Below, piece after piece: positions 31,555 to 37,714 of a stretch of DNA of 46,482 nt. The notes beneath the pieces are model-generated. The model worked only from the letters and a program-made list of their open reading frames with translations. It was not told where the DNA came from and did not search any database. Each line of letters starts with the position of its first letter. Position 1 is the first letter of the stretch. A program made the translations under genes and the position numbers. This DNA comes from a virus: the IMG/VR virus record IMGVR_UViG_3300035670_000367, positions 1 through 46,482 of that record; one strand, given 5' to 3'.

Positions 31555-31705
31555 AAAACCTAAAAATGAAAGTATCCAAGATATCCTAGATAGAATTCAA
31601 GAGGATATTGATTCAATAAGAGACAAGGCGGATGAGTTAGAAAATCACGATTGTGATTCTGACTCTGATTGGTCTGATGAAGACGAAGACGAAGATTCTG
31701 AATAG
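31547..31705 (+). CDS. Small protein with acidic Asp/Glu/Ser tail, 52 aa
   Basis: It starts MAKKPKNESIQDILDRIQED and ends in a run of Asp, Glu and Ser from residue 35. The last 61 bases overlap, in antisense, the end of the small terminase gene, so the acidic tail here and the Ser-rich tail there are the two strands of one repeated GA/TC-rich tract. Function unknown. Confidence 0.6.
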   Translation: MAKKPKNESIQDILDRIQEDIDSIRDKADELENHDCDSDSDWSDEDEDEDSE

Positions 31706-32253
31706 TTAACTAGAATCTTTTCTTTATTTGAAGGTTGTTGAGGTTTACCCATACGAATATCTAATTGCTTTTGTTTCACGTCAGCTTTGATATCATCAAC
31801 TTCAACTCCTTCAAGTATTGGTGCATATTGATCTAATACTTCTGCTAATCTCTTATCTAATTCCTCTTCAGATAAATCCTCTAACTTACCGGTCCTAATA
31901 ATTTTTTGTTCTACGTAAAGTCCAGCTGCTTTACCTCTAGCTACTTCTGCATTGACTGCAGCACTCCAGGCTTTTGACTCTCTTGCATTATCTCTCAACT
32001 TGGCAAGTTCTGAAATATGTCTTTCAAAAGTAACATCATATTTCTTTTGATATTCAGATCTTAACTGTCCAATGTATTGAACAACTAAAGGATATTTTTT
32101 TGGATTTTGTAGTTCTGATGCAGTGATGACAGCTCTATCTTTTGAATAGCCAGCCTCAATAGCGCATTCAGTTCCAGTCTTTCTTCCTTCGTTTGTGACT
32201 AGTTCAAATGCAAACTTCATTTGCATTTCTGTCAATTTTTTTGGTAATCCCAT
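31645..32253 (-). CDS. terS: Terminase small subunit
   Basis: 202 aa. The N-terminal DNA-binding region KLTEMQMKFAFELVTNEG followed by ECAIEAGYSKDRAVITASEL is a typical Terminase_2 helix-turn-helix, with N-x-x-x-Y-P-L-V-x-x-Y-I after it. A central helical part (ISELAKLRDNARESKAWSAA) would oligomerise, and the C-terminus is a Ser/Glu tail. It recognises the packaging site and recruits the large subunit. It lies on the opposite strand to terL and 4 kb away, which is unusual. No clear promoter is seen, though TTGACA occurs at 32291-32296 on the minus strand. Confidence 0.8.
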   Translation of the reverse strand: MGLPKKLTEMQMKFAFELVTNEGRKTGTECAIEAGYSKDRAVITASELQNPKKYPLVVQYIGQLRSEYQKKYDVTFERHISELAKLRDNARESKAWSAAVNAEVARGKAAGLYVEQKIIRTGKLEDLSEEELDKRLAEVLDQYAPILEGVEVDDIKADVKQKQLDIRMGKPQQPSNKEKILVNYSESSSSSSSDQSESESQS

Positions 32254-32607: not shown

Positions 32608-32970
32608 ATGAAACCAGAGTCAAAATTTTGGCTTGAAGTTAAAAAGAATATTAAAGAAATTTCCTTTACAAGGCTTGAATCTTGGGCCTCTGCTGGTGTT
32701 CCAGATCTATTGTGCTGCAATAAAAATGGAAAGTTTTTCACAGTTGAATTGAAAGTAACTTCCAGTCAAGGAATAAGATTCTCTCCACATCAAATTGCAT
32801 TTCACGTGAAGCATCCACACAATACTTTTATCTTAAAAAAGGCCCTCGGTCCTTTGTCCATAAAACTTTATACAGGTTCCGATATCCTCAAACTTGCGGG
32901 CCGTGAAGCTTGCACCCCTGTCGCCGAATCATGGGCCAAGGTCCAGGAAGTCTTTGTCAATGTGACATAG
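32608..32970 (+). CDS. VRR-NUC / PD-(D/E)XK-type nuclease
   Basis: 120 aa. The nuclease core is GVPDLL with D33, KFFTVELKV with E47 and K49, and the following SPHQIAFH helix, the layout of VRR-NUC and Holliday-junction-resolvase-like phage enzymes. It would cut branched or damaged DNA, perhaps before packaging. Its last codons and stop lie within the first copy of the GC-rich repeat, so the repeat forms the gene's 3' end. Confidence 0.75.
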   Translation: MKPESKFWLEVKKNIKEISFTRLESWASAGVPDLLCCNKNGKFFTVELKVTSSQGIRFSPHQIAFHVKHPHNTFILKKALGPLSIKLYTGSDILKLAGREACTPVAESWAKVQEVFVNVT

Positions 32971-33080
32971 TGTCGCAGTGTGATATTTTTGTCACACGAA
33001 ACACTTGTGGGCGGGTCCCACCCAGTGTGCCTTGCTCCCTGGCTCTTGGCACACGAAACACTTGTGGGCGGGTCCCACCC
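32962..33080 (+). repeat. Composite repeat unit 1 (one A palindrome, two B copies)
   Basis: Element A is an imperfect version, GTGACATAGTGTCGC at 32962-32976. Element B occurs twice as an identical 31-base direct repeat at 32993-33023 and 33050-33080; its centre is a GTGGG/CCCAC stem around CGGGT. Between the copies, GTGTGCC (33025-33031) can pair with GGCACAC (33048-33054). A GC-rich CTGCCTG microrepeat follows to 33137. Confidence 0.85.
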
Positions 33081-33174: not shown

Positions 33175-33199
33175 CAGGGCCCGATGAACACGGGCCCTG
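33175..33199 (-). terminator. GC-rich hairpin at the end of cassette 1
   Basis: CAGGGCCCG and CGGGCCCTG form a perfect 9-bp stem with a 7-base loop, 8 bases beyond the stop of the minus-strand gene. No U-tract follows in that direction, so termination may be partial or need a factor. A T-rich block (TTTTTAGTTTTT, 33150-33161) beside it recurs next to the hairpin of cassette 2. Confidence 0.5.
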
Positions 33200-33886: not shown

Positions 33887-33916
33887 ATTATATCCTACAA
33901 TCTCCCATCTTGTCAA
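33887..33916 (-). promoter_or_regulatory. Consensus promoter of cassette 1
   Basis: On the minus strand: TTGACA (33916-33911), an 18-base spacer ending GATTGTAGGA, then TATAAT (33892-33887). The GTAGGATATAAT context is shared with the 34.7 kb promoter on the other strand. The leader contains CGAAAGAG. Confidence 0.8.
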
Positions 33917-33982: not shown

Positions 33983-34031
33983 GCGACATAATGTCGCAGG
34001 TACACTAAACACTTGTGGGCGGGTCCCACCC
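33983..34031 (+). repeat. Composite repeat unit 2 (A + B)
   Basis: Element A is the perfect palindrome GCGACATAATGTCGC (33983-33997). After 9 bases comes the 25-base B core at 34007-34031 with its GTGGG/CCCAC stem. An A-rich tract and a GCTTGC microrepeat follow (34032-34070). Confidence 0.85.
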
Positions 34032-34101: not shown

Positions 34102-34122
34102 GGCGCCCGTTGTTCGGGCGCC
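34102..34122 (-). terminator. GC-rich hairpin at the end of cassette 2
   Basis: GGCGCCCG and CGGGCGCC form a perfect 8-bp stem with loop TTGTT, 8 bases beyond the stop of the last minus-strand gene. The T-rich TTTTTAGTTTTT block (34079-34090) stands beside it, as in cassette 1. There is no clear U-tract. Confidence 0.5.
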
Positions 34123-34130
34123 GTTGTGAA

Positions 34131-34579: not shown

Positions 34580-34608
34580 ACTATATCCTATGTTATCCCA
34601 TAACACAA
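34580..34608 (-). promoter_or_regulatory. Probable promoter of cassette 2
   Basis: On the minus strand: TTGTGT (34608-34603), a 17-base spacer ending ACATAGGA, then TATAGT (34585-34580). Weaker hexamers than its neighbours, but the TAGGATATA context matches the promoters at 33.9 and 34.7 kb. It abuts element A of repeat unit 3. Confidence 0.55.
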
Positions 34609-34609
34609 T

Positions 34610-34695
34610 GCGACATAGTGTCGCAGGCCCACTAAACACTTGTGGGCGGGTCCCACCCACAAAAAACACTAAACACTTGAGGGCGGGTCCCACCC
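34610..34695 (+). repeat. Composite repeat unit 3 (A + two B copies)
   Basis: Element A is GCGACATAGTGTCGC (34610-34624). The B core occurs at 34634-34658 and again at 34671-34695. In the second copy GTGGG has become GAGGG, which weakens the stem. An A-rich tract follows, then the promoter of cassette 3. Confidence 0.85.
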
Positions 34696-34729: not shown

Positions 34730-34759
34730 TTGACAACATAGGACAATGTAGGATATAAT
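34730..34759 (+). promoter_or_regulatory. Consensus promoter of cassette 3
   Basis: TTGACA at 34730-34735, an 18-base spacer ending AATGTAGGA, TATAAT at 34754-34759. The leader is about 24 bases long and contains CGAAAGGA as ribosome-binding site for ATG 34790. Confidence 0.85.
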
Positions 34760-34789: not shown

Positions 34790-35362
34790 ATGAGACCAAT
34801 AAGAAAACAAGAACTTGATTATTTAGATCGACTTATCAATAACAAGTTCCAAGAAAAGCAAAGCGCAATACGATCACAGTGCGAACTAGAAGTTGAAAAG
34901 CAATTAGAAAAGGACTTTACAAAGTTTTTATCTACTTTGAAACTTGAAAAGCTTTTAAAAGAAGCTGAACAAGCTGAAAAGGACTTTGAAGACTTTAAAC
35001 GTAATAAAGACAATAAAGAACAAGAACTGTCATCTATAGCGTTTAAAAAAAGAACTGCTTTGTCAGAAAAAATTAATCAGTGGTCTAATATTAGAGACTG
35101 GTCAATAACTAGTAGACATGACAACGTAGACGAAGCTATGAGTAATTTAAAAAAAGCTTGTAGACAAGAACTTGAAGAGAAATATAAAAACTCTGAAAAG
35201 GGCAAGTTCTTTAAATATCTTCAAAATGGAATTGAAGACGCTAGAAATACGTTATACTCTGGCTTGTCTATTGATGACGTTTGGAAAAACTTGGAAAGCA
35301 TATTCAATAAAGCACAAATTGAAGTACGTGTGCCAAAGTCCTTTGCACAAATTGCTAAATAA
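34790..35362 (+). CDS. Coiled-coil moron-like protein, 190 aa
   Basis: It is a stand-alone gene with its own perfect promoter, an AAAGGA site and a strong terminator, placed between repeat units 3 and 4. The protein is almost all helix: basic start, coiled coil at about 40-80 (KLEKLLKEAEQAEKDFEDFK), more helix (QWSNIRDWSITSRHDNVDEA), and a short C-terminal segment (EVRVPKSFAQIAK). No enzyme motif or membrane span is present. An independently expressed accessory gene of this kind is often a host-interference or anti-defence factor, but nothing here proves that. Confidence 0.7.
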   Translation: MRPIRKQELDYLDRLINNKFQEKQSAIRSQCELEVEKQLEKDFTKFLSTLKLEKLLKEAEQAEKDFEDFKRNKDNKEQELSSIAFKKRTALSEKINQWSNIRDWSITSRHDNVDEAMSNLKKACRQELEEKYKNSEKGKFFKYLQNGIEDARNTLYSGLSIDDVWKNLESIFNKAQIEVRVPKSFAQIAK

Positions 35363-35380: not shown

Positions 35381-35408
35381 AACAACGCCCGGAGTTCCGG
35401 GCGTTGTT
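35381..35408. terminator. Strong bidirectional hairpin between convergent genes
   Basis: AACAACGCCCGG and CCGGGCGTTGTT form a perfect 12-bp stem with loop AGTT. It lies between the ends of the plus-strand cassette gene and the minus-strand pair and could stop transcription from both sides. U-tracts are poor, but the stem is very stable. Confidence 0.65.
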
Positions 35409-35415
35409 GTTAAGA

Positions 35416-36026: not shown

Positions 36027-36069
36027 GCGACACTTTGTCGCACTAAACACATGTGGGCGGGTCCCACCC
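36027..36069 (+). repeat. Composite repeat unit 4 (A + B)
   Basis: Element A is GCGACACTTTGTCGC (36027-36041), with a changed loop but intact arms. The B core at 36045-36069 has one change (CTTG to CATG) outside the GTGGG/CCCAC stem. Conservation of the arms rather than the loop suggests that structure matters. Confidence 0.85.
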
Positions 36070-36229
36070 GAAGAAGAAAGGAAGAGGTCCCAATGGGTTG
36101 GCAAATACCTTTTAAGCAAGGTGGGGGGAGGGGGTAAAACAAAAAAAGGGGTCCCAGACATTACCCTTTAGTGCTGGATTTATACACCCGGGTGGGGTAT
36201 AAACTTTTTAAGGTACCATAATTAACATT

Positions 36230-37714
36230 ATGCTTGATATAGAAAAAATAAAAAATTTAAATAAGATAGCTGACCCTAAAGTAAGAAAGGAAACAAAATT
36301 AAATGTTTTGTATCGTATAGAAAAGGCTAGAAAAAATAATATAAAAAATAATTTTTTAGAATTTGTAAAATATATTTGGCCAGATTTTATTGAAGGCTTT
36401 CATCATAAAGAAATTGCAGATAAGTTTAATAGATTACAAACTGGTGAATTAAAAAGATTAATTATTAATATGCCACCAAGGCATACGAAATCAGAATTTG
36501 CTTCTTACTTTTTACCCGCTTGGATGATTGGAAATAATCCTAAATTAAAAATTATTCAAGCAACCCACACTGCAGAGCTTGCAGTACGTTTCGGTCGTAA
36601 AACTAAAAACTTGATTGATTCATCTGAATACAGAGAAATATTTAATACAAGATTACAAGAAGATTCAAAAGCCGCGGGCCGTTGGGAAACGGATCAAGGT
36701 GGTGAATACTTTGCTGTCGGTGTCCAGGGTGCGGTGACCGGTAGGGGTGCTGATTTATTAATCATCGATGATCCACATTCAGAGCAAGATGTAAATTCAG
36801 CCACAGCTTTTGATAAAGCATATGAGTGGTATACTTCAGGACCACGTCAACGTTTGCAGCCAGGTGGACGTATTGTTTTAGTTATGACTAGATGGTCAAC
36901 AAAAGATTTAACAGCACAACTCATCAAGGCTCAAGCAGCAGAAGAAAAAGCAGATCAATGGGAAGTTGTAGAATTTCCAGCCATTATGCCAAGTGGTAAA
37001 CCTTGCTGGCCAGAATATTGGAAGTTAGAAGATTTACTTGCAGTTAAAGCATCCGCTGGTATTTCAAAATGGAATGCTCAATACATGCAAGATCCAACTG
37101 CAGAAGAAGGAGCAATCATTAAACGTGAGTGGTGGAGAGATTGGACTGAAGATTATATTCCACCTTTAGAACATGTCATTCAATCTTATGATACAGCATT
37201 CATGAAAAAAGAAACTGCGGATTATTCAGCAATTACAACATGGGGCGTGTTTCATTTAAATGAGGACTCGGGCCCACAATTAATTTTACTGGATGCTAGA
37301 AAAGAACGTTTAGAGTTTCCTGAATTAAGGCGCATGGCCCACGAACAATATATGTATTGGCAACCTGAAACAGTTCTTGTTGAGGCAAAAGCATCAGGAC
37401 TTCCATTAACTTATGAACTTCGTAATATGGGTATACCCGTTATAAATTTTTCACCATCTAAAGGTAATGATAAACATGCACGAGTGAATGCTGTTGCACC
37501 TTTATTTGAATCTGGAATGATATGGGCTCCTAAATCTAAACAGTTTGCACAAGAGGTTATTGAGGAATGTGCAGCATTTCCTTATGGAGATCATGATGAT
37601 TTAGTAGATTCTATGACACAAGCGGTTATGCGATTTAGACAAGGGGGATTGATTTCTCACCCAGAAGACTATAGAGATGAAGAACTTCCAAAAACTGAGA
37701 GAAGTTATTATTAA
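36230..37714 (+). CDS. terL: Terminase large subunit
   Basis: 494 aa. The ATPase P-loop is PPRHTKSE at 82-89, where most relatives have PPRHGKS. Walker B is LLIIDDPH with D180-D181, and the coupling-type motif is VMTRWS. The nuclease domain has D321 (SYDTAF), E385 (LVEAKASG) and D456-D457 with D460 (GDHDDLVDSM). It cuts concatemeric DNA and drives it into the head. It begins the head operon. Confidence 0.95.
   Translation: MLDIEKIKNLNKIADPKVRKETKLNVLYRIEKARKNNIKNNFLEFVKYIWPDFIEGFHHKEIADKFNRLQTGELKRLIINMPPRHTKSEFASYFLPAWMIGNNPKLKIIQATHTAELAVRFGRKTKNLIDSSEYREIFNTRLQEDSKAAGRWETDQGGEYFAVGVQGAVTGRGADLLIIDDPHSEQDVNSATAFDKAYEWYTSGPRQRLQPGGRIVLVMTRWSTKDLTAQLIKAQAAEEKADQWEVVEFPAIMPSGKPCWPEYWKLEDLLAVKASAGISKWNAQYMQDPTAEEGAIIKREWWRDWTEDYIPPLEHVIQSYDTAFMKKETADYSAITTWGVFHLNEDSGPQLILLDARKERLEFPELRRMAHEQYMYWQPETVLVEAKASGLPLTYELRNMGIPVINFSPSKGNDKHARVNAVAPLFESGMIWAPKSKQFAQEVIEECAAFPYGDHDDLVDSMTQAVMRFRQGGLISHPEDYRDEELPKTERSYY

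Follow-up and report, generated by a model that had tools for sequence, protein, structure and literature searches.

Repeats between the terminase genes

The window (the whole 46,482-base stretch of DNA analyzed) belongs to an AT-rich phage that, judged from its sequence, is a relative of Pelagibacter phage HTVC027P, with which its terminase large subunit (TerL) shares 72% identity. Two short repeats, element A (GCGACA-N3-TGTCGC) and element B, lie on the + strand, in the zone between a gene resembling the terminase small subunit (TerS; 31645-32253, - strand) and the TerL gene (from 36230, + strand). Within this zone, an open reading frame (ORF) of 120 aa (32608-32970) resembles VRR-NUC/helicase-associated proteins in PHROG matches only (phrog_2165, E 8e-12; phrog_93, an endonuclease), with no match in Pfam or the PDB. 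The features are as follows.

32962..32976, - strand: A1, RegA-like box GTGACATAGTGTCGC, overlapping the stop codon of the VRR-NUC-like gene; 1 mismatch to the RegR consensus; TTGACA comes next on the - strand, without a -10
32978..32997, no strand: extra inverted repeat GTGTGA-TATTTTTG-TCACAC, between A1 and B1
33007..33023, + strand: B1 core GTGGGCGGGTCCCACCC, extended consensus CHTGTGGGCGGGNCCCACCC
33064..33080, + strand: B2 core
33177..33197, - strand: terminator-like GC hairpin, separating B2 from the end of the - strand genes 33692-33208
33887..33916, - strand: sigma70-type promoter TTGACA-18-TATAAT, for the leftward genes 33692-33208
33983..33997, - strand: A2, perfect RegA/RegR box GCGACATAATGTCGC, matching both consensuses without a mismatch; TTGACA comes next on the - strand, with the -10 absent
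34015..34031, + strand: B3 core
34102..34124, - strand: terminator-like hairpin GGCGCCCGTTGTTCGGGCGCC, separating B3 from the leftward genes 34500-34131
34580..34608, - strand: promoter TTGTGT-17-TATAGT, directly adjoining A3
34610..34624, - strand: A3, RegA-like box GCGACATAGTGTCGC, just upstream of the leftward -35
34642..34658, + strand: B4 core, in tandem with B5
34679..34695, + strand: B5 core, with an uncompensated stem change of T to A
34730..34759, + strand: rightward promoter TTGACA-18-TATAAT, for the 190-aa ORF 34790-35362
35382..35413, no strand: bidirectional terminator between convergent ORFs; relatives have terminator-B-terminator instead
36027..36041, - strand: A4, RegA-like box GCGACACTTTGTCGC, upstream of the leftward ORF 35908-35564, with no recognizable -35
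36053..36069, + strand: B6 core, ~177 bp ahead of the TerL start
36230..37714, + strand: terminase large subunit, our orientation reference

A first-pass annotation had counted four copies of A and six of B, and these numbers stand with the proviso that A1 and B5 each carry one mismatch: A is exact at 33983, 34610, and 36027 and has an altered arm (GTGACA) at 32962, and the B core is exact at 33007, 33064, 34015, 34642, and 36053 and has one mismatch (GAGGG...) at 34679. Shuffled versions of the window contain 0.21 copies of A on average (maximum, 2) and none of the B core. The A loops read TAG, TAA, TAG, and CTT, as had been stated, and it is indeed the A1 loop (32968-32970) that provides the TAG at which the 120-aa ORF stops. 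The arms, said to be kept, are so in most copies, with the exceptions of the altered arm in A1 and a broken stem pair in B5. The reported contrast in composition is present (local GC content of 41-43%, versus 26-40% in the rest of the window), and many further copies in related phages bear out that this is a genuine, selected GC-rich repeat pair. The phages carrying it form a large family, uncultured and probably infecting SAR11.

Other conserved sites occur closer to TerL. Window positions 36087-36165 and the same region of HTVC027P share deeply conserved GGTCCC/GGTACC/GGATCC sites, ~70 bp apart, upstream of TerL; these sites, C1 (GAGGTCCCA) and C2 (AAAGGGGTCCCAGA), are also present in phages without B and are candidate pac/cos or late-promoter elements. 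Between them, at 36118-36140, is a G-rich tract (GGTGGGGGGAGGGGG) that is retained in many B-carrying relatives and could possibly form a G-quadruplex. Moreover, a parS-like sequence (TGTTTCACGTGAAAC, the ParB site consensus) exists in 18 of the loci retrieved, several times upstream of TerL (loci include L188:1532, L192:5476, L066:10702/10849, L070, L136, L176, L177, L187, L198, and HTVC027P itself at L237:6414); the closest match in the window has 3 mismatches, which is at chance level.

Distribution and sequence constraint of element B

In the 46,482-base record, B is confined to 33.0-36.1 kb, and every copy is on the + strand. Scans of IMG/VR recovered B in 21 stretches with the exact core and in 57 with a degenerate one, and more were added via TerL homologues. 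No copy was found outside the VRR-NUC-to-TerL zone in relatives of 59.6 kb and 47.7 kb or in further contigs. A search for copies in related phages and in the host, as had been suggested, thus succeeded in the former and failed in the latter: B occurs in 0 of 147 SAR11-family genomes (≤1 mismatch), nor is it present in HTVC027P or in plasmids, and isolated phages yield weak chance matches only. Among the window proteins compared, none is specific to B-carrying phages.

The consensus of 348 distinct B sites is C-H-T-G-T-GGGCGGG-N-CCCACCC, with positions ~92 to 100% fixed except for a free center base and T(-1), which is at 82%. The first-pass annotation had proposed selection on structure and a covariance check of the arms; this check goes against the proposal, as the stem pairs vary without compensation across all 348 sites (for the pair T(-1).A(+11), we count 24 changes to A.A, 23 to C.A, 10 to T.T, 5 to C.T, 1 to A.T, and 0 to C.G), and the supposed loop, CGGG, is invariant, with only the center base varying freely. 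Given the lack of stem covariation and the invariant loop, selection on B appears to act on sequence rather than on a hairpin. With ~19 fixed bases in phages whose TerL is 70% identical, B is among the most constrained noncoding elements here, and its pattern fits a protein touching two half-sites around a free center.

An A-tract comes after B on the + strand, the - strand having the matching T-tract ahead of it. In the gap between the convergent 190-aa and 63-aa ORFs, the window and some other genomes have one bidirectional terminator, whereas others have a terminator, B, an A-tract, and a second terminator; B3 is shielded by the hairpin at 34102-34124, and B4 and B5 sit between divergent promoters. 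Such flanks make B look like a DNA site kept outside transcripts. We consider it very probable that B is a sequence-constrained, orientation-locked double-stranded DNA site, for which we rank a regulatory function first, a role in packaging or replication polarity second, and a recombination boundary third.

Several other identities were tried and rejected. B is not the promoter of a phage RNA polymerase, since + strand genes are not generally downstream and no such polymerase exists among the proteins scanned; CACTAAACACTTGTG within B is not an NrdR box, its spacing being wrong and its left part unconserved; and TTGTGGGCGG, which we take to resemble Tn7 ends, and A, whose likeness to serine-recombinase half-sites is also presumed, were both dropped because no transposase was found among the window proteins scanned and the orientation is wrong.

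Element A and the host regulator RegA

The GCGAC-N5-GTCGC of A is a palindrome of the RegA/PrrA/RegR type. Copies in the window have 0-1 mismatches to the RegR consensus and 0-2 to the RegA consensus (sites GNGRCRTTNNGNCGC and SSGNVRDNHYSNCSS, respectively, as quoted in PMC5506826), and sites recovered by ChIP include GTGACAATTTGTCCC at cydAB (PMC5359404). ChIP of Rhodobacter PrrA gave no strong consensus (PMC4263372); a consensus match alone is therefore weak, and the case rests on genome data.

Read on the - strand, A is often directly followed by TTGAC, in viral and in bacterial loci. At least 119 viral contigs, with GC contents of 31 to 61%, carry the combination A-TTGA, as do 105 bacterial loci, for which ~7.5 would be expected (an estimate from collection size). 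A TATAAT-like -10 box lies exactly 17 bp off at 26 of 107 bacterial and 15 of 138 viral sites, compared with ~1.2 to 1.4 per position in shuffles, although the majority of viral A sites have no consensus -10 at 17 bp, a point against the promoter-unit reading given below. A RegA homologue (called at E below 1e-40) is encoded in 25 of 30 genomes with A-TTGA versus 18 of 74 class-matched genomes (Fisher p ~3e-8, an optimistic value because lineages such as Nitrosomonas and Pandoraea cluster), and the A-TTGA genomes without RegA are mainly single matches in improbable taxa. Palindrome, promoter location, and an encoded RegA, as expected of RegA/RegR boxes, are all found for A.

In the SAR11 family, RegA scores above the curated NF033791 cut-off in 54 of 60 genomes, and RegB was found in the one genome examined. 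The recognition helix, HRRTLQR, is the same in SAR11 as in nearly all aligned beta/gamma/delta carriers (locus L375 excluded). Two findings count against the assignment: the beta/gamma RegA family scores under the curated cut-off, and a perfect A box is present in 1 of 147 SAR11 genomes, such that the targets of host RegA in SAR11 must be degenerate. The box is also present in an isolate, Caulobacter phage CcrSC, with TGCGACGACATGTCGCATTGAC between divergent genes. On balance, and by sequence comparison, A is probably a RegA operator.

The surroundings of A vary elsewhere. NrdR-box-like palindromes (CACTAGATCTAGTG and CACTATATCTTGTG) adjoin A in other phages (L180:1225, L064:2526, L072, and L118), which suggests stacked host operators. 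In many species of Pandoraea (L249, L251, L258, and others), a TTGAC promoter has conserved RegA-like palindromes in tandem upstream of it, and in other phages (L114 and L115), A has TCAA on both sides or is inside long inverted repeats, an arrangement that may reflect divergent use of one A box.

A proposed divergent promoter unit

We favor, with a probability of roughly 0.55, the reading that A and B together form the core of divergent early promoters, with A binding RegA and B binding a putative DNA-binding protein. The pair would be the center of a compact promoter unit in the accessory-gene zone that extends from TerS/VRR-NUC to TerL, in which A would act as operator for the host redox response regulator RegA (ActR/PrrA/RegR family). 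Since A abuts the -35 of leftward sigma70 promoters, its center is near -44, an activator-type position, and host RNA polymerase with phosphorylated RegA would set the expression of accessory genes. B would be a double-stranded, sequence-specific site for a host or phage protein, serving as a second regulator site or an architectural site beside the RegA-controlled promoter; its distance from A, ~33 bp, would equal three helical turns, and flanking terminators would keep it outside transcripts.

The spacing is consistent with such a unit: A and B are 33-34 bp apart in 95 of 171 sites, and the rightward -35, where present, often starts 31-35 bp past B, which places B ~75-80 bp from each start. 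The clearest example is A3-B4-B5, where a leftward TTGTGT-17-TATAGT abutting A3 is followed by B4, B5, the A-tract, and a rightward TTGACA-18-TATAAT. Weighing against this reading, A3 is the only A copy in the window with a full promoter, and B is sometimes present without A or any promoter. In A-less phages (L198, L209, and their relatives), a 17-bp palindrome, TATGCAG-AAA-CTGCATA, exists at a similar distance upstream of B.

HTVC027P has no RNA polymerase of its own and uses that of its host throughout, and its gp33 and gp34, within the TerS-TerL zone, are highly expressed from the early to the middle stage (PMC12753301). From promoter geometry together with this host-polymerase dependence and the expression of gp33/gp34, we infer an early divergent RegA promoter, and with it RegA binding to A, activation, and a regulatory role of B. 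What has been observed is the sequence and distribution of the elements, their orientation, the absence of covariation, the promoter geometry, the co-occurrence with RegA, and the identical recognition helix.

Alternative readings

B could instead be a signal of genome polarity, such as a pac-like packaging start or a replication site, read by TerS or a replication protein, in which case its direction would matter relative to the genome and not to genes. B is co-oriented with TerL in 433 of 435 matches from loci having TerL (a ratio of 433:2, the two exceptions being palindromic self-overlaps), and in sister phages, the variant B' (GTGACCTNNGGGCCCACCC) occupies the same place with a co-orientation of 20:0. 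In 10 instances, a cassette gene and its ortholog differ in orientation relative to TerL, and B keeps its direction; near-complete genomes confine B between TerS and TerL, and B is kept out of transcripts, all as expected of a polarity signal. The copies are, however, spread over 3 kb with intervening genes, which sets them apart from known pac/cos or iteron arrays, TerS differs little between phages that carry B and those that lack it (75% versus 69% identity), and the spacing of B to A and to promoters is fixed. We regard this reading as tentative. Equally tentative is a broader one, by which B copies mark the borders of a swappable terminase-adjacent zone, serve a process that depends on genome polarity (packaging, replication, or polar recombination), and are coupled at fixed spacing to host-redox promoters, amounting to a new kind of orientation-locked DNA signal.

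Alternatively, the A-B units might be dispersed promoter/terminator cassettes whose shared sequence permits the shuffling of accessory genes by recombination. The anatomy resembles that of the promoter-early stem-loop (PeSL) cassettes discussed below, a unit of promoter and stem-loop being repeated between variable genes; cassette genes are almost wholly different among relatives, and B persists through this turnover. One relative (L011) lacks the ~580-bp cassette from B3 to B4, with flanks that overlap exactly at B, and 21 of 121 clean insertion/deletion events are at B, versus 4.6% by chance. When distinct junctions are counted, 4 of 67 are at B, which is not above the null and lends no support to B as the main recombination joint; taken together, the two counts are equivocal. 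The ends of high-scoring segment pairs (HSPs) fall within 60 bp of B in 27% of cases versus 21% for intergenic positions, which may simply reflect a conserved B amid diverging spacers, and recombination alone cannot account for a fixed 17-mer in phages with 70-75% identical TerL. We consider this explanation unlikely.

Far less probable is that A and B act as RNA or cruciform stem-loops, i.e., as terminators, antiterminators, or processing signals. The tandem B1-B2 stretch does fold as RNA better than shuffles (z of -4.1), because B1 pairs with B2; B nevertheless lacks compensatory change and lies mostly outside transcripts, between terminators or promoters, it is not an intrinsic terminator (a GC hairpin plus U-tract), as no U-tract follows it, and neither Rfam nor tRNA scans gave a match. 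We reject this reading, and with it the earlier suggestion of a REP- or MITE-like mobile element, to which we give almost no credence: the repeats are palindromic, short, GC-rich, and intergenic, but they occupy one genomic slot in one orientation and B is in none of the 147 host genomes, no transposase or recombinase was found among the window proteins scanned (a subset of its ORFs), and the comparison of filled and empty sites points to terminator-bounded replacement with no target duplication or transposon-like insertion.

Implications and comparison with known systems

Returning to the favored reading, of a divergent promoter unit under RegA, phages may read the energy state of their host via A. 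If A binds RegA, many uncultured phages of Proteobacteria would use the quinone-redox sensor system RegB/RegA to time accessory genes, and this would be the second two-component system, after PhoB, to be exploited by marine phages. RegA being among the few regulators kept in streamlined SAR11, phage sensing of host energy state becomes directly testable, and B, highly constrained and with no known ligand, offers an entry point to an unstudied process in these abundant phages.

Compared by sequence with proteobacterial RegA/PrrA/ActR/RegR sites (the Bradyrhizobium RegR box and the Rhodobacter RegA ChIP motif), A has the same GCGNC-N5-GNCGC palindrome, is likewise at sigma70 promoters, and faces a host RegA with a conserved recognition helix, but it is in promoters of lytic phages, is a near-perfect palindrome, and abuts the -35. 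Cyanophage Pho boxes, read by host PhoR/PhoB (PMC10976474), are similarly operators of a host two-component system that are carried by a phage and control phage genes; the A-B units differ in that their regulator would respond to redox rather than phosphate, in their hosts, and in having several operators in one accessory zone. The PeSLs of T4-type phages (Arbiol 2010; Comeau 2014), as presented in PMC4503421, are also short repeated promoter/terminator units amid shuffled accessory genes. The likeness is one of anatomy, and the A-B units differ in carrying an operator of the host as well as B with its locked orientation. Mycobacteriophage L5 has stoperators, asymmetric DNA sites that recur in short gaps between genes and mostly face the same way. 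B shares this asymmetry, these short gaps, and the one-way bias, but it is limited to a single 3-kb zone, and its direction is tied to the genome rather than to transcription.
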